A stretch of DNA of 64,000 bases from Caldilineaceae bacterium (lineage in GTDB: Bacteria > Chloroflexota > Anaerolineae > Caldilineales > Caldilineaceae). Below, piece by piece: positions 37,854 through 50,039 of the stretch (its first letter is position 1; each line of letters opens with the position of its first letter). Where the stretch lies: positions 263,475 through 327,474 of the forward strand of contig JALHQH010000006.1 of the NCBI GenBank assembly GCA_022842065.1, written 5' to 3'. A program made the translations under genes and the position numbers. A model generated the notes under the pieces. It was not told the DNA's origin, did not search any database, and saw only the letters and a program-made list of their open reading frames with translations.

Positions 37854-38627
37854 ATGAGCTTATTGCAAGTTGAAAATGTCAGCGTTGTCTACCCCAATGG
37901 CACCCAAGCGTTGAAATCAATCACCATGCACGCTGAAGCGGGCGAGATCGTGGCGATTATTGGGCGCTCTGGGGCAGGTAAGTCCACCCTGTTGCGTTGT
38001 ATCAACGGCTTGCAACCCACCACCACCGGCAGTATTGTGCTGAATAGGGATGAGATTACCGCGGCAGGCGAACGCCAACTGCGCCAAATCCGCCGCAAGA
38101 TCGGCTTTATCTGGCAGGAGTATAACCTGGTCGATCGTTTGCCGGCGATGACCAACGTCTTAACTGGGCGCCTGGGCTACAATGCCCCCTGGCAGAGTGC
38201 GCTTGGCTTTTTTGACAGTAGCCAGCGCCAAATTGCGCTGCACAATCTGGAACGGGTAAACCTTTTACATCGCGCTTACCACCGTGCGGACCGGCTCTCT
38301 GGTGGCGAAAAACAACGGGTGGCAATTGCCCGCGCCATGTCCCAACAACCCACCATTGTCCTGGCCGACGAACCTGTCGCCAGCCTGGACCCCGAGCTGG
38401 CCGAGCAGGTGATGAGCGTCCTGGCCCGGATTGCCCGTGAAGATGGCGTCTTGACCTTGATCAACATCCACCATGTTGATCTCGCCAAACGTTTTGCCGA
38501 TCGGTTGATTGGCGTTGCCCAAGGGATCGTTGTCTTTGATGGGCCACCCGATGCACTAGATGACTATGCGTTGAACCAAATCTACCGTTTTGATGCCGCC
38601 ACCGTGCGCGCACCGCTGATGGGCTAA
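37854..38627 (+). CDS. phnC: Phosphonate ABC transporter ATP-binding protein PhnC
   Basis: The 257-residue protein has Walker A GRSGAGKST, the Q-loop in KIGFIWQEYNLV, the PhnC-typical RLSGGEKQRVAIARAMSQQP signature, Walker B IVLADEPVASLD and the H-loop HHVDLAKRFADR. Length matches E. coli PhnC. It is the ATPase of the phosphonate/phosphite importer PhnCDE and the first gene of the phn operon, directly behind a putative Pho box. The gene order here is C-E-D rather than the C-D-E of E. coli. Confidence 0.94.
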   Translation: MSLLQVENVSVVYPNGTQALKSITMHAEAGEIVAIIGRSGAGKSTLLRCINGLQPTTTGSIVLNRDEITAAGERQLRQIRRKIGFIWQEYNLVDRLPAMTNVLTGRLGYNAPWQSALGFFDSSQRQIALHNLERVNLLHRAYHRADRLSGGEKQRVAIARAMSQQPTIVLADEPVASLDPELAEQVMSVLARIAREDGVLTLINIHHVDLAKRFADRLIGVAQGIVVFDGPPDALDDYALNQIYRFDAATVRAPLMG

Positions 38628-38639
38628 AAGGAAGCGACT

Positions 38640-39575
38640 ATGACCACCGAACCATTGCATGTAGGCCGGGCCATGTCAACCATTACGGACGGCTTGCCGG
38701 AACAATTACGGACCGATCTATTGCACCCGTGGCCGCGGATTACCATAAGGTCGATGCTAACCATCATGCTGCTGATCGGCGTGCTGATGTGGGGCGTCAA
38801 CGGGACCAATGCCCGGCCAAGCGAATTGATCGACGGCATTCCAAATATTCTCGACTTTATCCGCCGCCTCTTTCCCCCCCGCTTTGATCTGGTGCCAATG
38901 ACGCTGGCCATCCCGGCCTTTACGATTTTTGGCATTACCGTCCCAGCGCTGGGCCTGCCCGGCACAGCCATCCTCTTGCCGGAAGTGCTCTTTGCGATTA
39001 TTGAGACCGTCCAAATGGCGCTGATTGGTTCGGTGATCGGGATCATTCTGGCCGCCCCCTTTGGGTTGCTGGCCGCACGTAACACCTCCCCCCATCCCTG
39101 GATCTATCAAGGGACGCGCATGTTCCTTAACGCCAATCGCTCGCTGCCGGAAATTGTTTATGCCCTTGTTTTTGTTGCAGCGGTCGGGCTTGGCCCCTTT
39201 GGCGGTGTACTAGCCCTGGCCATTGGCTCCATCGGATCTATCGGCAAACTCTACGCCGAAGCGATTGAACAGATCGACCCGCAACAGGTGCTTGCTGTAC
39301 GTGCCACTGGGGCAAATCCCCTGTTGACCTTTTTCTATGCCGTCATTCCCCAGGCACTGCCGGTCATCGCCTCCTACTCATTGTTGCTCTTTGAAGGTAA
39401 CATCCGTCACGCCAGCATTCTCGGTATCGTCGGGGCCGGTGGGATTGGTTTTATCATCAGCAAATATATGGCCCTATTTCAATATACTCGGCTGATGGGT
39501 GCGGTCATCCTCCTGATTCTCGCCGTGACCATCATTGACCGCATCAGCGATTATCTGCGCAAGAAGATTATTTAA
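38640..39575 (+). CDS. phnE: Phosphonate ABC transporter permease PhnE
   Basis: The 311-residue protein has an N-terminal cytoplasmic stretch, a first helix (MLTIMLLIGVLMWGVNGT), then the BPD_transp_1 core with IGSVIGIILAAPFGLLAARN, LNANRSLPEIVYALVFVAAV, LYAEAIEQIDPQQVLAVRAT and GIVGAGGIGFIISKYM, the last being typical of PhnE. It forms the channel for phosphonate uptake as a homodimer. It starts 12 bases after phnC; a perfect-armed G/C-rich repeat separates it from phnD. Confidence 0.93.
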   Translation: MTTEPLHVGRAMSTITDGLPEQLRTDLLHPWPRITIRSMLTIMLLIGVLMWGVNGTNARPSELIDGIPNILDFIRRLFPPRFDLVPMTLAIPAFTIFGITVPALGLPGTAILLPEVLFAIIETVQMALIGSVIGIILAAPFGLLAARNTSPHPWIYQGTRMFLNANRSLPEIVYALVFVAAVGLGPFGGVLALAIGSIGSIGKLYAEAIEQIDPQQVLAVRATGANPLLTFFYAVIPQALPVIASYSLLLFEGNIRHASILGIVGAGGIGFIISKYMALFQYTRLMGAVILLILAVTIIDRISDYLRKKII

Positions 39576-39725: not shown

Positions 39726-40793
39726 ATGAAACGTCAATTGCTCATTGCCGGCCTGTTGCTGGCGCTTACCACCTTGCTCAGCGCTTGTGTCGTCCCGGTT
39801 GCCCCTGCGGCACCAGCAGCCGCCGACGCCCCTGCGGCGGAGGCAGCGGCCGGTGAAGTGGATCGCACCGACTGGCCGGAAACCTTCCGCGTCGGCTTCT
39901 TCGCCAGCGATGATGCCGAAAAGACCCTCAAGGACAACGAACCCTTCCGCCTGTATATGGAAGAGCAACTGGGTATCCCCGTCGAACTCTTTACCGGCAC
40001 CAGCTACAGCGCCGTGATCGAAGCCATGCGCGCCGACCGCGTCGAAGCGATGTTGGTTGGCCCCTTTGCCTATGTCTTAGCCGTGCAAGAGGCCCAAGCC
40101 GAAGCGCTCGGTGTTAATGTCGGCTTGGAAGGTGATGCAACGACCTACAATCCCGATGCGCCGACCCACTACTACAGCACAATCTTCACCAAAAAAGGGT
40201 CGGGCATTGTCACGTTGGCCGATCTAAAGGGTAAAGATTTTGCCTTTGTTGATCCGGCTTCCACCTCTGGCCATCTGGCCCCTAAAACCTTGTTGATCAA
40301 AAACGAGATCAATCCCGACAGCGACATGAAGACTGTCTTCGCCGGTAGCCACCCCTCAGCCGTGCTCGCGGTCTGGAATGACCAGGCCCCTGCCGGTGCC
40401 ACCTTTGAGAACAATCTTTACACCCTGGCCGAAGAAGGACAGATTGAATTCTGTGGTTTCGAAGATGGTAAGACCGCCGTCAAGCGCACGCCAGAAGAAA
40501 TCAAAGCCGTTTATGATGCCTGCCCGGATGGCAGTCTGGCCATCATTGCCTTCACTGATGAAATTCCCAGCACCCCGTTCGCCGTCCGCAGCACCTTGCC
40601 GGATTCTTTGAAGACAACGGTTAAGGACGCCTTGCTTGCGATCAAGGATAGCGATGAGCTGATCACCCAAATGGCCGGCTGGTATGTCGATCCCTCTGCC
40701 GACCTGGGGTTGGAATCCCTGGATCAGTACTACAACAGCCTGCGCGACATCGCCAAGCTGCTGGATCTGGATTTGAAAGAACTCGCTAAGTAA
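39726..40793 (+). CDS. phnD: Phosphonate-binding lipoprotein PhnD
   Basis: The 355-residue protein has a signal peptide with lipobox LLSAC, an Ala-rich linker, and the PhnD/SsuA/Tau-type binding fold: FFASDDAEKTLKDNEPFRLY, YSAVIEAMRADRVEAMLVGP, FAFVDPASTSGHLAPKTLLI and VFAGSHPSAVLAVWND. It captures phosphonates or phosphite outside the membrane for PhnCE. It is separated from phnE by a 150-base repeat and from phnG by an inverted repeat, either of which might raise the level of the binding protein relative to the rest. Confidence 0.94.
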   Translation: MKRQLLIAGLLLALTTLLSACVVPVAPAAPAAADAPAAEAAAGEVDRTDWPETFRVGFFASDDAEKTLKDNEPFRLYMEEQLGIPVELFTGTSYSAVIEAMRADRVEAMLVGPFAYVLAVQEAQAEALGVNVGLEGDATTYNPDAPTHYYSTIFTKKGSGIVTLADLKGKDFAFVDPASTSGHLAPKTLLIKNEINPDSDMKTVFAGSHPSAVLAVWNDQAPAGATFENNLYTLAEEGQIEFCGFEDGKTAVKRTPEEIKAVYDACPDGSLAIIAFTDEIPSTPFAVRSTLPDSLKTTVKDALLAIKDSDELITQMAGWYVDPSADLGLESLDQYYNSLRDIAKLLDLDLKELAK

Positions 40794-40801
40794 AACGTGA
40801 T

Positions 40802-40871
40802 GCGTGAAACGTAAAACGTAAAACGTGATGGGTGTCGTTACATTTTACGTTTTACGTTTCACGTTTCACGC
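40802..40871. repeat. Inverted repeat of cgtgaaacgtaaaacg-type units, 25-bp arms, one mismatch
   Basis: Arms 40802-40826 and 40847-40871 pair with one mismatch and are made of tandem aaacgta/gaaacgt units. It lies between phnD and phnG. The same units occur at 25275-25314 and 46504-46596. Confidence 0.85.
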
Positions 40872-40890
40872 CTTTAAAGATTGCAAACAA

Positions 40891-41337
40891 ATGATATCTG
40901 AACAAAGTAATTATCTTTCCGTCCTGACGGCGACGCCGGCCCAGGAAATTAAACTATTTACCGAAGCAGTGCTGGATCGGTTAGCAACTGGGCAGGTGTC
41001 GGTCGAGGTTCTCACCAGCCGGACGGGGTTAGCCATGTTGCCCTTTACGGACAGCGTCAAGGGCGTCACCTTTCACCTGGGCGAAACGTTGCTGGCCGAA
41101 GCGCATGTTCGTGTCGGCCAACAGGAAGGGTATGCCGCCTGTCTGGGGCGTGACCTGGAGCAAGCCATTGCGTTAGCTTTGCTGGATGCCCTGTTGCAAA
41201 GCGACGAGCGCGGGGTGAAAGCAGAACAGCCGGCCATCTTGGCCTTTGTCGCCGCCGCCGCGCAAGAGCAAGCGGATCAGGAACTGCGCTTACTGCACAA
41301 AATTGAAGCCACCCGCATCGAATTGGAAACTTTCTGA
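40891..41337 (+). CDS. phnG: C-P lyase subunit PhnG
   Basis: From the ATG at 40891 the protein has 148 residues; the longer in-frame start at 40825 would translate the inverted repeat and is rejected. It matches PhnG by size, position and stretches such as GLAMLPFTDSVKGVTFHLGE and LLAEAHVRVGQQEGYAACLG, where E. coli PhnG has the corresponding VRV..D/EGYA..LG region. With PhnH, I and J it forms the C-P lyase core, and with PhnI and PhnL it exchanges the purine base of ATP for a phosphonate. The stop overlaps the phnH start (TGATGA). Confidence 0.9.
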   Translation: MISEQSNYLSVLTATPAQEIKLFTEAVLDRLATGQVSVEVLTSRTGLAMLPFTDSVKGVTFHLGETLLAEAHVRVGQQEGYAACLGRDLEQAIALALLDALLQSDERGVKAEQPAILAFVAAAAQEQADQELRLLHKIEATRIELETF

Positions 41338-41939
41338 TGACAACCTTACCGGTGCAGACGTTCCAGCCCCCGCCCTCGACGAGCGCAGAAACCAGTGCGC
41401 GTGAAACTTTTCAGGCCCTCATGGGTGCCTTGAGCAATCCCGGCCGGCTTTTTACCTTACCGGGGGCTGGACTGACGACCCACCAAAGCTGCGCGCAGAT
41501 CGGCATGACCTTACTCGATCTGGAAACGAGCTTTTACACGCCCGACCACACGCTCAGAGGCATCCTGACACACAGCGGGGCGCGCTTTCGCACACCGGCC
41601 AGTGCGGCCTATCTTTTCCTCCCGGATCTGGCATTATTCGAGCCGATGATGCTGCGCCAAACGCTTGACATCATCGCCCAGACGACTGTCGGCACCATCA
41701 CCGACCCCGATCAAGGTGCAACGCTGATCGTCGCCTGTGAAGTGGGCCATGGGCAGCGCCTACAGCTATCGGGGCCTGGCATTCAACAGCGGCATGAATT
41801 GCACGTTGATTCACTACCCGTCGAATTCTGGCGCTTGCGGGCTGACAAGATCCACTATCCCCTGGGCATCGATATTTTTCTTGTGGCCGGCAGCCAAGTC
41901 GTTGGCTTGCCCCGCACAACGACCGTAGAGAGCGAGTAA
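41337..41939 (+). CDS. phnH: C-P lyase subunit PhnH
   Basis: The 200-residue protein shows PhnH features: ARETFQALMGALSNPGRLFT near the N-terminus (the RxxMxxxSxPG region), ALTLLDLE-like MTLLDLETSFYTPD, and C-terminal RLQLSGPGIQQRHELHV plus YPLGIDIFLV, which is nearly invariant in the family. It has no known catalytic activity but is an essential structural member of the PhnGHIJ core. It overlaps phnG by one base and ends four bases before phnI. Confidence 0.93.
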   Translation: MTTLPVQTFQPPPSTSAETSARETFQALMGALSNPGRLFTLPGAGLTTHQSCAQIGMTLLDLETSFYTPDHTLRGILTHSGARFRTPASAAYLFLPDLALFEPMMLRQTLDIIAQTTVGTITDPDQGATLIVACEVGHGQRLQLSGPGIQQRHELHVDSLPVEFWRLRADKIHYPLGIDIFLVAGSQVVGLPRTTTVESE

Positions 41940-41943
41940 CCCA

Positions 41944-43116
41944 ATGGCTTATGTCGCAACCAGGGGTGGTGAAAATGCCATCCAACAATCGGAACAGCTT
42001 TTTCACGATCTGCGCGGTGCCGTCACCCCAGCCTTTGTGCATACGCTCATGCAAACCATGCCCTATCTTGTGGACCGCGTCATGAGTGAGGCCGGGCTTT
42101 ATGCGCCCGAGCTGGCCGCATTGGCCTTGGCGCAAAGTGGCGGCGATCTCTACGAAAGTGTGCTGCTCTTGCGCGCCTACTGCTCCACGCAGCCGCGCCT
42201 CACCTATGCCCAACCGGTACACAGCGCCGATCTCTTTACCGTGCGCCGCATTTCAGCCGCCTTCAAAGAGATCCCTGGTGGTCAGATCCTGGGGCCATCG
42301 CTCGATTACAGTCATCGCCTGCTCCGTTTTGACCTGCTGGATGGGGCAGCGGACGCACAAGCGGTTGAACCGGCAGCGCGACCGGCGCACAAAGTTTATC
42401 CCACCGTGGCCAGCTGGCAGCGTGATCAAGATCTGATCGAGCCGCTACCCCCACCAGCCCCGTTCGATGCCCACCAGATCCCAGATATCACGCGTGAGCC
42501 GGTTGGTTTTCCGGCTCCTCGTGCCCATCGTCTGCAAGCCCTGGCGCGCGCCGATACCGGCGGCACCTTGGCCTTGGGCTACGCCTCCATGCGCGGTTAT
42601 GGCCTTACCCACCCCACGATCAACGAGCTGCGCCTTGCCTATGCCGATGTCAAGTTAACCCATCCACTCACCGGTAACACCTTTAGCGCCGGTCGCATTC
42701 GCGTCAGCCAGGCGGAAGTGGTGAGCACCGGCGGAGGCACGCCCGAAAAACCGATGTTGGAATTGGGCTTTTGTGCCACCCTGGGCTGGAATGAAGTGAA
42801 GGTGATCGCCGCTTCGATGCTCGATATGGAGATGAACAAACCCGAGCCCCACCCCGCGCACAAAGAAGAATTTGTGCTCTATCACACCGAAGCGGTCGAG
42901 GCCTCCGGCTTCTGCATCCACTTTAAGCTGCCCCACTATGTCACCTTTAGCAGCAGCATGGATAACATCCGCAACGTGCGCGAATCGCAGACGCGTGGGA
43001 TGTTTGAAGGGATCTTCGTCCAAACCCTGGCCAAGCCGACGGCCGGCAAGGCGGACACAACAACGAACGGTACCGGTGCCGCCGGTCACAAAACAACCGC
43101 GGAGCAGGGCGCATGA
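41944..43116 (+). CDS. phnI: C-P lyase subunit PhnI (nucleosidase component)
   Basis: The 390-residue protein begins with the canonical PhnI start MAYVATRGGENAIQQSEQL and has RLTYAQPVHSADLFTVRRIS, ALGYASMRGYGLTHPTINEL, and LDMEMNKPEPHPAHKEEFVL, whose His/Glu residues are strongly conserved in the family. PhnI alone is a purine nucleosidase and with PhnG/H/L makes the ribose-1-phosphonate triphosphate intermediate. It is about 35 residues longer than E. coli PhnI, the extra part being a low-complexity C-terminal tail. It overlaps phnJ by four bases. Confidence 0.94.
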   Translation: MAYVATRGGENAIQQSEQLFHDLRGAVTPAFVHTLMQTMPYLVDRVMSEAGLYAPELAALALAQSGGDLYESVLLLRAYCSTQPRLTYAQPVHSADLFTVRRISAAFKEIPGGQILGPSLDYSHRLLRFDLLDGAADAQAVEPAARPAHKVYPTVASWQRDQDLIEPLPPPAPFDAHQIPDITREPVGFPAPRAHRLQALARADTGGTLALGYASMRGYGLTHPTINELRLAYADVKLTHPLTGNTFSAGRIRVSQAEVVSTGGGTPEKPMLELGFCATLGWNEVKVIAASMLDMEMNKPEPHPAHKEEFVLYHTEAVEASGFCIHFKLPHYVTFSSSMDNIRNVRESQTRGMFEGIFVQTLAKPTAGKADTTTNGTGAAGHKTTAEQGA

Positions 43117-44063
43117 GTCAACTAAGCCAACTAGCGGCGCCCTACACGGCGACCCAACAGAGCGGTTATTCCTACGGTTTTCTCGACGAGTTTGCCAAGC
43201 GTGAGATCCGCCGGCGCACTCTCAAAGCGATTGCGATTCCCGGCTATCAAGTTCCCTATGCCAGCCGCGAACTGCCGATCGCGCGCGGCTGGGGTACCGG
43301 TGGCTTACAGGTAACGCTGAGCATTACCGGCCCCCACAGTGTGGTCAAGGTGATCGACCAGGGGGCCGACGATTCGGTCAACGCCGCCAATCTGCGCCGC
43401 TTTATTGCGCGCATGACTGGTGCCCAGACCACCACGGATACGCTGGCCGCCACCATTATTCAGAGCCGTCACCGGATTCCCGAAGAAATTTTACATAACG
43501 ACCAGGTGCTCGTTTTGCAAGTGCCGGATCCCGAACCGTTGCGTGGCGTGCAACCCAACATGTCACAGGCGCGCATTATGCATGGCGATGCCGATTACAG
43601 CCAGATGTGGCTCACCCTTTACGAGCAGCTAGTTTTCTTTGGCCGCTTTATGCAAGGGGCCAGTTACCCCTCGCTCGTCCATGGCCGCTATCTCATCTCG
43701 CCCAGCCCGATCCCACGCTGGGATACACCAAAACTGCATCAAGCGGCCCATCTCACGCTGCTCTCGGCGGGGCGCGAAAAACGGCTTTATGCCGTGCCAC
43801 CCTATACCGATGTGCGGCCGATTGAGTTTGACGATGTCTTCTTTCAGGTCGAAGCGCAAGGCACCTGGCGCTGTCGGCAGAGTGGCGCACAACACAAATT
43901 TATGAACGAGCTGCCCCAAGACGATGGCACGGTGCTCTATGAGTTGTCCGACACGAGTTATGCCGCCAAGTTGGTCGCACAACACAGCGGCCAGGCCGCC
44001 CCACTGGGCGAGACCTATTTTGACGATCAGGGCAAGTTCTACCACTCAGGCTTTCTGAAGTAA
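43113..44063 (+). CDS. phnJ: C-P lyase catalytic subunit PhnJ, lacking most Fe-S cysteines
   Basis: The 316-residue protein aligns by eye with E. coli PhnJ over its whole length: AIPGYQVP with the glycyl-radical Gly (Gly44 here), YGWGTGG-like RGWGTGGLQVT, KVIDQGADDSVNAA, QSRHRIPEE, SPSPIPRWDTPK and GREKRLYAVPPYT. In E. coli the next segment has the four cysteines that hold the [4Fe-4S] cluster and the thiyl radical (CxxC, then VCSDTDYC). Here the corresponding positions read RCRQSG and YELSDTSYAAK: only Cys254 remains, and it is the only Cys in the protein. The frame is intact and the rest of the operon looks functional. Confidence 0.93.
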   Translation: MSQLSQLAAPYTATQQSGYSYGFLDEFAKREIRRRTLKAIAIPGYQVPYASRELPIARGWGTGGLQVTLSITGPHSVVKVIDQGADDSVNAANLRRFIARMTGAQTTTDTLAATIIQSRHRIPEEILHNDQVLVLQVPDPEPLRGVQPNMSQARIMHGDADYSQMWLTLYEQLVFFGRFMQGASYPSLVHGRYLISPSPIPRWDTPKLHQAAHLTLLSAGREKRLYAVPPYTDVRPIEFDDVFFQVEAQGTWRCRQSGAQHKFMNELPQDDGTVLYELSDTSYAAKLVAQHSGQAAPLGETYFDDQGKFYHSGFLK

Positions 44064-44075
44064 GCACCTACTCGT

Positions 44076-44268
44076 TCCGCCGCGGAGCGGCGGACTGCAG
44101 CTTGGACGCTCTGCGTCCCTGGTCATCCGTGTACTCAGCATCCTCAGATGCTGAGCCCGTTCCTCAACGTCTGTGTGCATCTGGGGATGCACACTACACG
44201 TTCCCGAACTTGGAATTACTGGTAGGGCACGCTGCACCCTACCAGTATCACGCCGCTTTGCGGCGTGA
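44076..44268. repeat. Array of six consecutive perfect hairpins between phnJ and the phytase-like gene
   Basis: Stems: 44076-44082/44088-44094, 44104-44109/44113-44118, 44134-44142/44147-44155, 44173-44181/44186-44194, 44217-44227/44237-44247 and 44248-44256/44260-44268. All are perfect, 6-11 bp, with loops of 3-9 bases. The fourth resembles a hairpin at 59334-59355. This fills the 239-base gap apart from the ribosome site. Confidence 0.85.
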
Positions 44269-44302
44269 CGAGACACTTAATACGACTAACAGGAGATTCA
44301 TC

Positions 44303-45571
44303 ATGTATCGACACTTTCGTTTGTTATTCGCGGTCTTACTCTTGGCCCTGACCACCAGCCAAGCCATTGCGCAGACCAGCGGCGCGGAGCTAATCGGCTA
44401 CGCTGAATTGCCCGCCGATACCTTTGCCCCTGGTCCTGATTCCGGCCAATTTGAGGGCAACGGCAACAAGTTGGCTGCGCCCCGCTTTACCGGGCAGCCA
44501 ATCCAGGGCTTTTCGGCGATTCAATTTGGCACCAAGAGCGATAGTTACTGGGTCATGTCGGATAACGGCTTTGGCAGCAAGTACAACAGCCCCGATTACC
44601 TGCTGCGCCTCTACCAGATCACCCCAGATCCAGTGACCGTGGACGGCGGCAGCGGTGAAGTGGAGATTGATGCCCGCTTTATCCAGCTGCGCGACCCGGA
44701 TCAGTTGGTCCCCTTTATGATTGCCAACGAATTTACGCGCGAGCGGTTGCTCACCGGTTTCGATTTTGATGTGGAATCCTTTGTGATTGCCGAAGATGGT
44801 ACGATCTGGATCGGCGACGAATTTGGCCCCTACCTGCTCCACTTTGATGCCACGGGCAAACTGCTGGAAGCGCCCTATGCCACGCCGAATCTCTTGGAAG
44901 GCTTGGATCCAACCAAAGACTTTGTGCGCTCACCCCAAAATCCGGCGAACCTGGCCAATGCGCCGCAGCCAGGCGCGGTCGGTGGTGCTAACCTGCGCGC
45001 CTCGCGCGGCTATGAGGGCATGGCACTTAGCCCCGACAAAACATGGGCCTATCCTTTGCTCGAAGGCACGGTCATTAGCGACACCGCCGGCCTGCTGCGT
45101 ATCTATTCCTTTGACCTGGTCAACCAGGAGTTTATCGACATTGTCGGCTACTACCCGATGGAAGATCCCGGCAATGCGATCGGCGATTTTGCTGTGGTCA
45201 ATGAAGATGAGTTCCTGGTCATCGAGCGCGACAATGCCTTTGGGGCCGATGCCAAGCTCAAGAAGATCTTTAAGATCAACCTGGCCGAACAGGATGAAAA
45301 TGGCGTGGTCGCCAAAGAAGAAGTGGCCGATCTGCTCAACATTGCCGACCCCAACAACCTGGCCAGCGATGGCGTCTTCACCTTCCCCTTTGTCACGATT
45401 GAAAATGTGATCGTGTTGGATGAAACGACCATCCTGGTTGCCAATGACAACAACTATCCGGCCACCGGCGGGCGTGGGGCTGATGTGAAAGACAATAACG
45501 AGATCATCTGGCTGCAACTAGCCACCCCGTTGACGCTGGCCGATGGCGTCGGCATGGCAGCGGATGAATAA
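44303..45571 (+). CDS. Secreted phytase-like esterase family protein inside the phn operon
   Basis: The ATG at 44303 behind AGGAGA gives 422 residues with a cleavable signal peptide ending at AIAQ. The sequence matches the 'esterase-like activity of phytase' family: GQPIQGFSAIQFGTKSDSYW, VMSDNGFGSKYNSPDYLLRL, FVIAEDGTIWIGDEFGPYLL, SRGYEGMALSPDKTWAYPLL, and FLVIERDNAFGADAKLKKIF. It should act outside the cell or in the periplasm-like space on phosphate esters, but the family's substrates are poorly known. It is placed between phnJ and phnK on the same strand, so it is probably co-expressed with C-P lyase. It is unrelated in detail to the beta-propeller phytase at 7247. Confidence 0.88.
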   Translation: MYRHFRLLFAVLLLALTTSQAIAQTSGAELIGYAELPADTFAPGPDSGQFEGNGNKLAAPRFTGQPIQGFSAIQFGTKSDSYWVMSDNGFGSKYNSPDYLLRLYQITPDPVTVDGGSGEVEIDARFIQLRDPDQLVPFMIANEFTRERLLTGFDFDVESFVIAEDGTIWIGDEFGPYLLHFDATGKLLEAPYATPNLLEGLDPTKDFVRSPQNPANLANAPQPGAVGGANLRASRGYEGMALSPDKTWAYPLLEGTVISDTAGLLRIYSFDLVNQEFIDIVGYYPMEDPGNAIGDFAVVNEDEFLVIERDNAFGADAKLKKIFKINLAEQDENGVVAKEEVADLLNIADPNNLASDGVFTFPFVTIENVIVLDETTILVANDNNYPATGGRGADVKDNNEIIWLQLATPLTLADGVGMAADE

Positions 45572-45640: not shown

Positions 45641-45675
45641 CTGATCCGGAAAAAGACCTTTTGATTAGCAACGCT

Positions 45676-46494
45676 ATGCACAATCAGCACACCATTCCAA
45701 TCCAACTTGCCCCACCACACTTTGTCACCACCCCGCCAGTGCTGCAAGTCCGCGGGGTGAGCAAGCGTTATGGCCGTATCACCGCCGTCGACAATGTTGA
45801 CGTGACCGTCTACCCCGGCGAAATTCTGGGCATTGTCGGTGAGTCGGGATCGGGCAAATCGACCCTCTTGCGCATGCTCAACCTGGAGGAAGCGGCAGAC
45901 AGCGGCATCTATACCCTGGCGATTCCCGGCTACGAAGGCCGCAATCTCTTTGGCTTGGACCGCCTGGCCAAACGCGATGTGCGTGTCAACCATATTGGCA
46001 TTGTCTACCAACATCCTCATTTGGGGCTGCGTATGCGCAAAACGAGCAGTGGCAATGTGGCAGAACGGCTGATTATGGCCGGTGAACGCAATTTTGCCCA
46101 CTTGCGCCAAGCCGCCGGCGATGCCCTCGCTGCTTCCGAATTCCCCCTGGATCGCATGGACGACCTGCCCCTGCGCCTTTCCGGTGGCATGCAACAGCGC
46201 GTCCAATTGGCCAAGGCGATTGCCTTGCGTCCGGCCTTGCTCCTGCTCGACGAGCCAACCAGTGGGCTAGATGTTTCGGTGCAAGCGATGGTGCTCGACA
46301 CCCTGAAACGGCTCCAGCGCGAAACACAGGTCACGATGGTCATGGTCTCCCACGATCTCGGCGTCATCCGTACCCTGGCCGACCGGGTGATGGTAATGAA
46401 AGAGGCCCGCGTCGTCGAAACCGGCCTCACCGACCAGGTGCTCGAAGACCCGCAGGATGCGTATACACAGCAGTTAATTCACGCGAAGTTGTGA
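45676..46494 (+). CDS. phnK: C-P lyase ABC-type ATPase PhnK
   Basis: The ATG at 45676 gives 272 residues, slightly longer than E. coli PhnK. It has Walker A GESGSGKST, the Q-loop in IGIVYQHPHLGLRMRKTSSG (typical PhnK wording), the LRLSGGMQQRVQLAKAIALR signature, Walker B LLLLDEPTSGLD and the H-loop VSHDLGV. PhnK binds the PhnGHIJ core and is needed for C-P cleavage. No obvious ribosome site precedes the start; a perfect palindrome lies just upstream. It is followed, after another repeat, by a metallophosphoesterase rather than directly by phnL. Confidence 0.93.
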   Translation: MHNQHTIPIQLAPPHFVTTPPVLQVRGVSKRYGRITAVDNVDVTVYPGEILGIVGESGSGKSTLLRMLNLEEAADSGIYTLAIPGYEGRNLFGLDRLAKRDVRVNHIGIVYQHPHLGLRMRKTSSGNVAERLIMAGERNFAHLRQAAGDALAASEFPLDRMDDLPLRLSGGMQQRVQLAKAIALRPALLLLDEPTSGLDVSVQAMVLDTLKRLQRETQVTMVMVSHDLGVIRTLADRVMVMKEARVVETGLTDQVLEDPQDAYTQQLIHAKL

Positions 46495-46503
46495 TTACGT
46501 GCT

Positions 46504-46596
46504 GCGTGAAACGTGAAACGTGAAACGTAACAGTGTGGCTGTATGGCGCAATTGGTGCGTTTACGAATCAAGTTTTACGCTTCACGTTTTACGTTT
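46504..46596. repeat. Imperfect inverted repeat of gtgaaac/gttttacg units
   Basis: Three tandem gtgaaac units (46504-46528) face ttttacgcttcacgttttacg (about 46573-46594). Same unit family as at 40802-40871. It separates phnK from the metallophosphoesterase gene. Confidence 0.75.
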
Positions 46597-46617
46597 TATC
46601 TATCACCTGAGAAACTC

Positions 46618-47397
46618 ATGAAAATCGGTCTCATTGCGGACATCCACGGCAACCAGCAAGCCCTCAGCCAAGTGTTAAATCAGCTCTATAGCGAGCGGGT
46701 TGACCTGATCTTATGCGCGGGCGATCTAGTCTGTTATGGGGCCCATTGCAATCAGGTGATCGAGTTAATGCGCTCCTGCGCGATTCCCACCGTCACCGGC
46801 AACTATGATGCTGCCGTTGCTTGGGATTGGGTCAAAGCGTCCAGCAAACCCTCCAGCCCAGTCAACGAAGTATTAAAGCAGGCGGCGCTCGATTGGACCA
46901 AAGCGGCGCTCCATAGTAAACACCAGGGCTATCTGCGTGGCTTACCCTGGCAGTTGCGCTATCAACTAGATGGGCTCGACATTGCAGTGATTCACGCCGG
47001 TTTACACGCATTGGATGAATGGTATACCCCAGATGAGCCGGTGCGCCTCTCTGCCTTAGCCGCGCAGGTCGGGGCGGACATTATTGTGCTCGGCCATACC
47101 CATCAAGCGTTTGTTTATGAGGTTGAGTATGCCCCTGGCCGCCGCACCCTTTTGATTAATCCCGGTGCCGTTGGGCGTTCCCTCGATGGTGATCCACGCG
47201 CCGCCTATGCGACGCTACAAACGGCGACACGCGTCGTCAAGTTGCAGCGCATCGCCTATAACTTGCCGATGGCGGTCCAAGCGATTATGCATAGCGGGAT
47301 GCCACCGGAGATTGCCTTGCTTGTTCAATATGGCGCGCGCCGCGTTGAGCAGTTGCCGGCACCCATGCTCGAACAGATAAGGATTGAAGCAGTATGA
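46618..47397 (+). CDS. Calcineurin-like metallophosphoesterase (YfcE/MJ0936-like) in the phn operon
   Basis: From the ATG at 46618 the protein has 259 residues with the full metal-site motif set: GLIADIHGNQQA, AGDLVCYG, VTGNYDAAVAW, VIHAGL, and VLGHTHQAFVY. The earlier in-frame start lies in the repeat and is rejected. Such enzymes hydrolyse phosphodiesters or phosphomonoesters with two metal ions. It lies between phnK and phnL and overlaps phnL by four bases, so it is firmly part of the operon. Because phnP and phnN are absent, it may perform the cyclic ribose phosphate hydrolysis normally done by PhnP (inference). Confidence 0.9.
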   Translation: MKIGLIADIHGNQQALSQVLNQLYSERVDLILCAGDLVCYGAHCNQVIELMRSCAIPTVTGNYDAAVAWDWVKASSKPSSPVNEVLKQAALDWTKAALHSKHQGYLRGLPWQLRYQLDGLDIAVIHAGLHALDEWYTPDEPVRLSALAAQVGADIIVLGHTHQAFVYEVEYAPGRRTLLINPGAVGRSLDGDPRAAYATLQTATRVVKLQRIAYNLPMAVQAIMHSGMPPEIALLVQYGARRVEQLPAPMLEQIRIEAV

Positions 47398-48107
47398 GGA
47401 CAGATGTACTTTTGCACGTCGAGGGGTTAGCCAAACAGTTTACGATCCACCACCTGGGGCGGACGATTCCCGCCTTTGCGGATCTGCATTTCTGTCTGTC
47501 ACCAGGTCAATTTCTCTTAGTCAGTGGACCAAACGGGGCCGGCAAATCGACCTTGCTGCGCTGTCTCTACCGCACTTATCTGCCGACGGCGGGGCGGGCC
47601 TGGTTTCAATCCACTTATGGGCGCATCGATCTCGCCGGGGCGGCGGACAGTGACATCGCCCTGCTGCGCAAAGAGGAGATCGGCTTTGTCACCCAATTTC
47701 TCAAGACGCGACCACGGGTCACCGCGCTTGAACTGGTAGCCGAACCGTTGCTGCTGACGGGGTTGAGCGCTGCGGAAGCCACTAAACGCGCCGAGGCTGC
47801 GCTCGATTTTTTTGGTGTAAAACCGGATCTCTGGTCGGCTTACCCCACCACCTTTTCCGGCGGCGAGCAACAAAAGGTCAACCTGGCGCGCGCGTTGATC
47901 CGCCCCTATCGGCTCTTATTACTCGACGAACCCACTGCTTCGCTGGATGTGCAGGCCCGTCAAGCGTTGGTCGAACGGCTGAAAGTGCTGAAAACACAAG
48001 GCGTTGCGATGATGGCCGTGCTGCACCATGCCGAAGACGCCGCCGACCTGATCGACCATCGTCTAGAGATTGTAACCCAACAGGAAATCGCATATGTGGC
48101 TGAGTGA
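47394..48107 (+). CDS. phnL: C-P lyase ABC-type ATPase PhnL
   Basis: The 237-residue protein has Walker A GPNGAGKST, the PhnL-typical LRCLYRTYLPTAG, EEIGFVTQFLKTRPRVTALE around the Q-loop, the signature TFSGGEQQKVNLARALIRPY, Walker B LLLLDEPTASLD and a late His. PhnL acts with PhnG, H and I in forming the alpha-D-ribose-1-phosphonate triphosphate. The start overlaps the metallophosphoesterase stop (ATGA) and the end overlaps phnM by 14 bases, indicating tight translational coupling across MPE-phnL-phnM. Confidence 0.94.
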   Translation: MRTDVLLHVEGLAKQFTIHHLGRTIPAFADLHFCLSPGQFLLVSGPNGAGKSTLLRCLYRTYLPTAGRAWFQSTYGRIDLAGAADSDIALLRKEEIGFVTQFLKTRPRVTALELVAEPLLLTGLSAAEATKRAEAALDFFGVKPDLWSAYPTTFSGGEQQKVNLARALIRPYRLLLLDEPTASLDVQARQALVERLKVLKTQGVAMMAVLHHAEDAADLIDHRLEIVTQQEIAYVAE

Positions 48108-49308
48108 CTTACAAATTGTACTGCCCGACGGTGTGCTTGACCGCGGCTCGTTGCGCATTGAGAATGGCCGGATCGCTGAGATTATAGAAGGCCCGGTCTC
48201 TGCACCGGCCGCGGTGCAGGGGGCCGGTTTGTTGGCCATTCCTGGCCTGATCGATATGCACGGGGACATGCTCGAACGGGACATTTCGCCCCGCCCCGGG
48301 GCCGAGTTACCCTTTGCGATGGCCCTGAATGAATTGGATAAACGGTTGGTCGCAACGGGGATCACCACGGCGTATGCCGCCATCTCTTTTGCCTGGCACA
48401 CCGGGCAAAGTCTCCGTTCGGATGGCAAGGCGCGTGCGATCATGGCCACGATCAACGAGTTGCGGCCCACGTTGCTCGCCGATCATTATGTCCACGCCCG
48501 CTTTGAGATCACCAACCCCCAAGCCGGTGCCATTTTAGAAGAGATGATCCTGGCCGGTCAGGTACACATGGCCTCGATCATGGATCACACGCCAGGGCAA
48601 GGCCAATATCGGGATATTGAAGGTTATGTCAAGCAGATGTTTGAATGGCGGCGCAAGATGGGTGACCCGTTGGGTGGCAATGGCCAGGAGATCACCGAAG
48701 CCGATGTGCGTGAGAGTGTCGTTGTAGCCCAACAGCGCCCAAAGGCGTGGGATTCGGTTTATTCCGTAGCGCAAGTCGCGCAAAAACATGGCGTGGTGCT
48801 CGCCTCGCACGATGATGACACCGTGGAGAAGGTTGATCTAATGCTCGATGTCGGCATCAATATGAGTGAATTCCCGGTCAGCAAAGAGGCCGCCGGTCGC
48901 GCCCGTGAACATGGCCTGCATGTCGCGATGGGCGCACCGAATGCCCTGCAAGGGCGCTCGCTCTCCGGCAACCTCAGTGCCGCCGACGCCATTGCCGATG
49001 GGTTGGTCGATATTCTTGCCACCGATTATTACCCGGCCTCCATGCTGCAAGCAGCCTTTGCCCTCGTTGCGCGCGGCGTCCTGCCCCTCCACCAGGCGAT
49101 CAAATTAATCAGCGAAAATGTAGCGGACGGGCTGCGCTTGCATGATCGGGGTCAACTTGCGGTGGGTAAGTTGGCCGATCTGGTGTTGCTCGATGTCAAC
49201 GGGGAAATGCCGCGCGTCCACGGCACCCTGCGCCACGGCCAGCCTGTCTACTGGGACAAATTTATGCACGCACGGGGTACACTACAGCGCAGCAAAGTTG
49301 TGGTGTAG
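48094..49308 (+). CDS. phnM: RPnTP diphosphatase PhnM (amidohydrolase superfamily)
   Basis: The 404-residue protein has GLIDMHGDMLERDISPRPGA, which carries the first metal ligands and the PhnM-specific ERxxxPRPG stretch, then ASIMDHTPGQGQYRDIEGY, VLASHDDDTVEKVDLMLDVG, MSEFPVSKEAAGRAREHGLH and ILATDYYPASMLQAA. PhnM removes pyrophosphate from ribose-1-phosphonate triphosphate. It overlaps phnL. A perfect hairpin follows 4 bases after the stop and a hexapeptide acyltransferase gene comes next. Confidence 0.94.
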   Translation: MWLSDLQIVLPDGVLDRGSLRIENGRIAEIIEGPVSAPAAVQGAGLLAIPGLIDMHGDMLERDISPRPGAELPFAMALNELDKRLVATGITTAYAAISFAWHTGQSLRSDGKARAIMATINELRPTLLADHYVHARFEITNPQAGAILEEMILAGQVHMASIMDHTPGQGQYRDIEGYVKQMFEWRRKMGDPLGGNGQEITEADVRESVVVAQQRPKAWDSVYSVAQVAQKHGVVLASHDDDTVEKVDLMLDVGINMSEFPVSKEAAGRAREHGLHVAMGAPNALQGRSLSGNLSAADAIADGLVDILATDYYPASMLQAAFALVARGVLPLHQAIKLISENVADGLRLHDRGQLAVGKLADLVLLDVNGEMPRVHGTLRHGQPVYWDKFMHARGTLQRSKVVV

Positions 49309-49388: not shown

Positions 49389-50039
49389 ATGTTACAGATT
49401 GCCCATTTTCCTGCTGTTGAACCCGAACACACCGTACGTATGCTGCATGAAACCCCCACCATCCACCCCTCCTGTCACATTGTGAGTAGCTTGGTCGGTG
49501 GCTGGACCGAATTGGGACCAGAGACCACACTGCTCGAATCAACCGTGGGCGACTACAGCTATACGGCTGGGCATGTCTCCCTGGCCTATACCGACGTGGG
49601 CAAGTTCTGTTCGATTGCCGCGCTGGTGCGGATCAACCCCGGCAACCACCCGATGGGGCGCGTGACCCAACACCATTTTACCTATCGCCGCGCCCAATAT
49701 GGCTTTGGGCCGGATGACGATAGCTTTTTTGATTGGCGCCGTGGCTATCGCTGTGTCACCGGCCATGATGTCTGGATCGGCCACGGTGCGATCATTTTGC
49801 CGGGGGTGACGATTGGCACAGGGGCGGTAGTTGGGGCCGGGGCTGTCGTCACGAAGGATGTCGATCCTTACACCATCGTCGTCGGCGTCCCGGCTAAACC
49901 GATCCGCAAACGTTTTCCTGCGGAAACGATCGAAGCCCTGCTGCGGATCGCCTGGTGGGATTGGGATCACGCCACGATCAAGGCGCGGTTTGCCGATCTA
50001 TTAGAGATTGAGCGGTTTGTTGAACGGTATGGACGCTGA
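49389..50039 (+). CDS. Hexapeptide-repeat acyltransferase of phosphonate clusters
   Basis: The 216-residue protein is a left-handed beta-helix acyltransferase: [56 protein letters not shown] and [20 protein letters not shown], then [11 protein letters not shown]. The NHP and GHG histidines are the likely catalytic ones. Proteins of this type, resembling chloramphenicol acetyltransferase, recur in phn operons and are annotated as phosphonate metabolism transferases; they may acetylate aminoalkylphosphonates in the manner of PhnO. It is the last gene of the operon. Confidence 0.9.

Follow-up and report, generated by a model that had tools for sequence, protein, structure and literature searches.

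The window analysed here, a stretch of 64,000 nucleotides from a Caldilineaceae contig (JALHQH010000006.1), holds a carbon-phosphorus (C-P) lyase operon whose phnJ gene encodes a protein with a single cysteine. The genes run in the order phnC, E, D, G, H, I and J, a phytase-like gene, phnK, a YfcE-type phosphodiesterase gene, phnL, phnM and a hexapeptide transferase gene, and all features given below lie on the forward strand. phnJ itself (43113..44063) is an open reading frame (ORF) of 316 amino acids that starts with ATG and overlaps phnI by 4 nucleotides. Its product matches the Pfam family PhnJ (PF06007) over its full length with 405 bits against a cut-off of 25, and phmmer aligns residues 16-285 without a break to Escherichia coli PhnJ (4xb6_D, 286 bits); a scan of NCBIfam, a library that may hold no PhnJ model, gave no match for PhnJ or PhnI of the window. 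These alignments bear out an earlier note on this DNA, which had read a complete PhnJ scaffold with Gly44, the motif HRIPE and Cys254 as the only cysteine, and had seen CxxCGxxH (CAICGSTH in E. coli) turned into CRQSGAQH and VCSDTDYC into ELSDTSYA.

In E. coli PhnJ three cysteines bind the cluster and a fourth is the thiyl residue. Of the cluster cysteines C241, C244 and C266 the window protein has the first only, as Cys254 (43872..43874), with Ser257 (43881..43883) and Leu278 (43944..43946) replacing the other two, and Ala284 (43962..43964) occupies the position of the thiyl residue C272. In passages of the E. coli structural study all four cysteines are assigned to the cluster site (PMC9947105). 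Displacement of the cysteines was rejected as an explanation, as MAFFT places the cysteine positions of the window, E. coli, Thermus and Sinorhizobium proteins in identical columns, in agreement with phmmer, and an AlphaFold model of the window protein superposes on E. coli PhnJ across the cysteine-bearing domain. A sequencing or assembly error was likewise rejected, as relatives on other contigs, with identities of 95, 93 and 92% and below, have the same residues at these sites. The substrate site is kept: Gly44 (43242..43244) corresponds to Gly32, the glycyl-radical residue of E. coli, although its presence is no proof of a radical, Arg119-His120 (43467..43472) to Arg107-His108, which contact the ribose and the cyclic phosphate, and Gln136 (43518..43520) to Gln124, which contacts the ribose (PMC9947105). 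The Zn-site residues H328 and H333 of PhnI are present in the window as well.

The window protein belongs to a family, here called Cys-less (one or none of the four cysteines). Searches with the window PhnJ (best 120 of 7783) and with Thermus PhnJ (best 120 of 8000) yielded 215 different proteins, and the four-cysteine set is absent from all 215 among the matches listed; since both queries are Cys-less, this set is biased toward the clade by design. When these homologues were aligned with loci from genome contigs, plasmids, E. coli K-12 and a Chloroflexota sample (373 rows, some genomes twice), all four cysteines were found in 102 rows, one in 246 and none of the four in 25, and no row had two or three. 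A tree of 34 Cys-less and 42 canonical representatives, built on E. coli columns 1-234 and thus omitting the cysteine region, has one branch that separates the two groups, with support of 100/99 and recovery in 100% of 200 bootstrap trees (a bootstrap not fully settled, at 0.988). The PhnI tree of the same loci shows the same split (100/100, 26 versus 68 rows), with Thermus PhnI on a long branch. The median ratio of nonsynonymous to synonymous substitution rates (dN/dS) is 0.138 for Cys-less phnJ versus 0.135 for canonical phnJ. Both the shared clade and the selection test, which the earlier note had named as checks, thus speak for a preserved gene, and its suggestion of a recently dead PhnJ is ruled out by the single clade, the invariant substrate-site residues and the canonical-like dN/dS. 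Its other two options, a different route and a core complex without C-P cleavage, both stay.

It is close to certain that the Cys-less clade is real, old and functional. Far from being an isolated broken copy, the window gene is part of an old, widespread and actively preserved branch without the iron-sulfur cysteines thought essential; this branch must either cleave C-P bonds by other means or serve another function. Its named members in Chloroflexota are Caldilineaceae, Anaerolineae, Chloroploca and Oscillochloris, the closest named relatives of the window protein among the matches listed being Caldilineaceae at 87%. Elsewhere they are Thermus, Meiothermus, Deinococcus oregonensis and Synechococcus sp. 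WC101, and in alphaproteobacteria Rhizobiaceae, Phyllobacteriaceae, Devosia and Rhodobacterales. Viral contigs gave no relative of the Synechococcus sp. WC101 protein (P0124), and the titles, abstract openings and passages among the matches listed from the open-access literature mention no Cys-less PhnJ.

The earlier note had pictured a lone PhnJ that lost its cysteines, and the genome survey replaces that picture with a large family which stands in for the canonical enzyme in part of Chloroflexota. We scanned six genomes (G001-G006) and a 400-genome sample of the phylum of G003, an Anaerolineae metagenome-assembled genome that is in both sets. All six, and twelve of the 37 PhnJ-bearing genomes of the sample, carry one PhnJ each, which is Cys-less, and the remaining 25 of the 37 carry canonical copies only (26 copies). 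No second PhnJ was found in any of the 17 draft genomes of the Chloroflexota set with a Cys-less PhnJ, drafts whose completeness is unstated. Two of the six bear other labels: locus L005 is recorded as 'bacterium' only, and locus L004 as Bacteroidetes, yet the L004 PhnJ is 74% identical to that of the window and the PhnI tree places L004 close to the window, so that this record is possibly a mislabelled bin. Among 22 alphaproteobacterial genomes with a Cys-less PhnJ, 18 also hold a verified four-cysteine copy; of the other four, one has a split second copy with residues unread and three drafts show the Cys-less form only. PhnJ was found in 65 genomes of a 385-genome alphaproteobacterial sample, with a low-scoring second copy in just two (G015, Cys-less; G449, residues unread), which indicates that the Cys-less form is rare there. 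The annotated alphaproteobacterial plasmid operons with a Cys-less phnJ carry their own G to M set (L116 lists one of the two ABC ATPases), which argues against a role as just an accessory subunit in the canonical complex.

Conservation within the clade follows the substrate site. Gly32, Arg107, His108 and Gln124 of PhnJ (E. coli numbering) are invariant in 271 of 271 Cys-less rows, Gly32 indeed in all 373 rows, and His219, His328 and His333 of PhnI in 51 of 51; in the E. coli cryo-electron microscopy structures all of these except Gly32 are in contact with the Zn ion or with the cyclic phosphate ligand (PMC9947105). Of the cysteine positions, the first, C241, is retained in 91% of Cys-less rows, the second is mostly Thr or Ser, the third Leu, Val or Ile, and the fourth Ala, Gly, Met, Leu or Val, with Cys at this fourth position in 0 of 271. 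Fourteen of the 215 full-length homologues among the matches listed have no cysteine at all, and in those a PhnJ thiyl radical is impossible. Separately, a cysteine directly after the glycyl-radical glycine (E. coli position 33) occurs in 18 of the 22 alphaproteobacterial Cys-less PhnJ proteins (L008, L009, L011-L024, L026, L027).

PhnI has a switch of its own. At position 326, which precedes the Zn ligand His328 by two residues, 49 of 51 Cys-less rows have Cys and 0 of 94 canonical rows do; in the window this residue is Cys324 (42913..42915), with His326 as the Zn ligand. Among the 120 matches listed for a Thermus-seeded PhnI search, 108 have Cys at this position, 11 have Ala and one, a fragment, has a gap. 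The 11 with Ala sit among the 12 best matches listed, and those with a name come from Thermus, Synechococcus sp. OH20 and a single Meiothermus; another Meiothermus PhnI (P0240) has Cys. PhnI Cys326 is therefore typical of most of the clade but not of all of it, and its role as a universal substitute was rejected on account of the Ala in the Thermus/Synechococcus group. In 39 paired loci PhnJ C241 and PhnI C326 occur together in 36, the PhnI cysteine alone in two, the PhnJ cysteine alone in one and neither in none, numbers too few to weigh. Nine further PhnI positions (65, 76, 85, 199, 223, 251, 252, 273 and 318) are switched between the clades in the compared loci; across the wider homologue set some of them, for example 85 and 252, vary. 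Across Cys-less operons the purge of cysteines is partial: relative to the canonical copy of the same alphaproteobacterial genome, PhnL has fewer cysteines in 12 of 12 pairs, PhnK fewer in 12 of 16 (two equal, two more) and PhnI fewer in 5 of 15 (seven equal, three more).

The remaining genes of the window operon fit phosphonate use. Upstream lie phnC for the ATPase of a phosphonate ATP-binding cassette (ABC) transporter (37854..38627, TIGR02315, 329 bits), phnE for its permease (38640..39575, TIGR01097, 266 bits) and a phnD-type gene for the substrate-binding protein (39726..40793, TIGR01098, 216 bits), all over cut-off, the last with 182 bits for PhnD TIGR03431, under the 261-bit cut-off. 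They are followed by phnG (40825..41337, true start probably the internal ATG at 40891; PF06754, 71 bits; TIGR03293, 83 bits, under the 89-bit cut-off), phnH (41337..41939; PF05845, 128 bits; TIGR03292, 124 bits, over cut-off) and phnI (41944..43116; PF05861, 383 bits), which keeps the three Zn-site histidines. Downstream of phnJ come phnK (45661..46494), with PhnK TIGR02323 as best NCBIfam match (216 bits, under the 303-bit cut-off), phnL (47394..48107), with PhnL TIGR02324 as best match (235 bits, under the 256-bit cut-off), phnM for the RPnTP diphosphatase (48094..49308; NF011988, 402 bits, over cut-off) and a phn-associated hexapeptide transferase gene (49389..50039; TIGR03308, 274 bits, over cut-off). 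The earlier note had called the operon otherwise complete, and phnG, H, I, K, L and M do all stand beside phnJ, with PhnG, PhnK and PhnL divergent (the right NCBIfam family is best, below its cut-off); it is not the full E. coli set, as neither phnN nor phnP was found among the window operon genes scanned and two other genes are interspersed. One is the phytase-like esterase gene (44102..45571, start probably the ATG at 44303; PF13449, 186 bits); between phnJ and it, at 44060-44320, lie four perfect inverted repeats with arms of 9-11 and loops of 3-9 nucleotides, resembling a run of small hairpins. A gene annotated as phytase-family also lies downstream of the phn cluster of Thermus plasmid pVV8, with TIGR00282-type phosphodiesterase and SurE genes between (L112, 19037-28807). 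The other is the YfcE-type calcineurin-like phosphodiesterase gene (46543..47397; TIGR00040, 63 bits, over the 56-bit cut-off), whose product is a possible stand-in for PhnP; in locus L005 a relative scoring 51 bits is encoded close to phnJ.

The gene families most often shared by Cys-less loci offered no replacement gene. Greedy BLAST families from 29 Cys-less loci (the window included) and 52 canonical loci showed that those in at least 8 of the 29 Cys-less loci are phn genes, transporters, a GntR-like regulator (our own reading) and the hexapeptide gene, so a replacement gene in the operon was rejected; several families in 3-7 Cys-less loci are ORFs antisense to phn genes. In 36 neighbouring ORFs 61 Pfam families were counted, and the 25 commonest of these include no radical SAM family. 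The downstream enzymes are uninformative as a marker of different chemistry: PhnN (TIGR02322) and PhnP (TIGR03307) stay below cut-off in G001-G006 and in 37 of 37 PhnJ-bearing Chloroflexota (best scores in these 37 of 74 bits against 156 needed and 120 against 272), canonical ones included, which means that their absence is unlinked to the cysteines. Other enzymes may stand in for them. DUF1045 is absent in five of G001-G006 and weak in G005 (31 bits, over the 24-bit cut-off). PhnN and/or DUF1045 occur near a Cys-less phnJ in 3 of 22 alphaproteobacterial genomes (both within 5 kb in G013, PhnN within 4 kb in G020, both up to about 9 kb away on one contig in G022) and in one of four plasmids (L114, both). 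DUF1045 presumably opens the cyclic phosphate as a phosphoesterase of the 2H type; if this is right, the alphaproteobacterial operons with DUF1045 make a cyclic phosphate intermediate. Two Cys-less operons have, just downstream, phnX (whose product, phosphonoacetaldehyde hydrolase, scores over cut-off) and a FAD oxidase gene of type TIGR03364 (L002, 14283-16250; L004, 10201-12930).

We favour, at a probability of roughly 55%, a phosphonate-processing complex whose bond-breaking step would not use a PhnJ cluster. The fold, the invariant substrate- and Zn-site residues, the matching PhnI and PhnJ splits, the purifying selection and the phosphonate gene neighbourhood form its observed basis, and phosphonate use is the likely job of the clade. 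The window would then encode a phosphonate-scavenging machine of a separate clade, with import probably through PhnCDE, followed by PhnGHI, K, L and M and a PhnJ without [4Fe-4S] cluster and Cys272. As in E. coli, PhnGHI(L) would couple the phosphonate to ribose and PhnM would trim the product. The P-C bond might then open at the Zn2+ pocket of PhnI and PhnJ, with no cleavage of S-adenosylmethionine (SAM) at the PhnJ C-terminal domain, and the ribose 2-hydroxyl would take the phosphorus to give the 1,2-cyclic phosphate. For most of the clade, the PhnI cysteine next to the Zn ligand is the leading candidate for a thiol or metal ligand at this site; absent from the Thermus/Synechococcus group, it cannot be a universal one. 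A bolder proposal, tentative and with the odds somewhat against it, is that the clade would represent a fourth route of C-P cleavage beside the hydrolytic, oxidative and radical ones, namely a broad C-P lyase without Fe-S cluster or PhnJ thiyl cysteine, acting at this zinc pocket and possibly oxygen-tolerant, in Chloroflexota, Thermus and at least one cyanobacterial lineage.

Several points weigh against a complex of this kind. Without a radical, an unactivated C-P bond is difficult to break chemically, and passages of PMC9947105 describe E. coli PhnJ as dependent on SAM and strictly anaerobic. No activity was seen for any clade member in this sequence-based analysis, and the PhnI cysteine is missing from one group. 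PhnN and PhnP fall below cut-off in every PhnJ-bearing genome of the Chloroflexota sample, canonical and Cys-less alike, and most alphaproteobacteria with a Cys-less copy keep a canonical one. The PhnJ of Synechococcus OS-B', the strain with reported methane release, is linked to the clade only through a named relative, WC101, presumed to be of hot-spring origin.

An altered task is the strongest competitor, though we hold it unlikely. Here the complex would couple a phosphorus compound to ribose through PhnGHI, L and M and leave unactivated C-P bonds alone, while activated substrates (for example with a stabilised leaving group) or another phosphorus compound would be handled at the Zn site by plain nucleophilic chemistry. 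Retention of the Zn- and ribose-site residues while the cluster ligands beyond the first are replaced is in line with this, as are the nine further switched PhnI positions and the verified canonical enzyme alongside in 18 of 22 alphaproteobacteria, as expected if the tasks differ. However, the Cys-less protein is the only PhnJ found in the 17 Chloroflexota-set drafts, phnX and the TIGR03364 oxidase next to two Cys-less operons suggest general phosphonate use, and the OS-B' methane release, as far as the published excerpts go, would contradict an altered task if the OS-B' PhnJ is Cys-less.

Less probable again is that the radical chemistry is unchanged and has another starter, the Cys4 site being mainly structural or replaceable and the Gly32 radical being made by another protein. 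Zinc-binding and zinc-free paralogue pairs of ribosomal proteins offer an analogy. The invariant Gly32 would be explained, and the geometry is inviting, as the E. coli structures place the cluster site ~30 Å from Gly32 and Gly32 31 Å from the Zn ion, an acknowledged puzzle (passages of PMC9947105). Yet no unknown gene family recurs in at least 8 of the 29 Cys-less loci, the commonest neighbouring Pfam families include no radical SAM protein, and Cys272 is missing too, together with every other cysteine in 14 of the 215 homologues. A degenerate gene or a sequencing or assembly error, to which the loss of three of four cysteines in the window might point, is a negligible prospect in view of the single clade, its dN/dS, the lack of rows with two or three cysteines and the relatives from other contigs.

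PhnJ, described as a SAM-dependent radical enzyme, is used as a marker gene for methylphosphonate-driven methane (for example in passages of PMC9617973). Given a large PhnJ clade under selection and without the cluster, counts of phnJ lump together two kinds of enzyme. The clade is also a natural experiment on the remote E. coli cluster site.

Compared with the E. coli C-P lyase, the window keeps only C241 of C241, C244, C266 and C272, most of the clade has Cys at PhnI position 326, and the window operon genes are without phnN and phnP. The second phn operons of alphaproteobacteria (for example Sinorhizobium sp. B11, L113) resemble the window in that a Cys-less phnJ is accompanied by G, H, I and M genes and two ABC ATPase genes of its own, and differ in that a canonical PhnJ usually lies elsewhere in the genome and that a few have phnN and/or DUF1045 nearby. 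In Synechococcus, the sole PhnJ read under that name (WC101, from a cluster of 52 sequences) has the Cys-less signature and is 86% identical to Thermus PhnJ over core columns, but has an extra cysteine five residues past the first; at PhnI position 326, Synechococcus sp. OH20 (P0221) has Ala. We take WC101 to be a hot-spring strain, and OS-B' likely has the same Cys-less protein. In a 2011 abstract, OS-B' was reportedly found to release methane or ethane in the light. Should the sole PhnJ of OS-B' prove Cys-less, the published methane release would already show Fe-S-free C-P cleavage: passages of PMC5955973 describe for Synechococcus JA-2-3B'a(2-13) a full phn cluster, growth on phosphonates as sole phosphorus source and methane from methylphosphonate, and passages of PMC9600594 contrast OS-B', with its C-P lyase operon, with OS-A. 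Finally, the phn cluster on plasmid pVV8 of Thermus thermophilus HB8 (L112) differs from the window in a PhnI with Ala at position 326 and no cysteine at all and in a PhnJ 61% identical to the window's; pVV8 has been lost from many laboratory lines, according to a passage of PMC7694296. The pVV8 cluster shares with the window a Cys-less PhnJ (one cysteine), phnC-D-E-G-H-I-J, two ABC ATPase genes, phnM and the hexapeptide gene, and with the whole cluster on one plasmid HB8 would be a simple test case.
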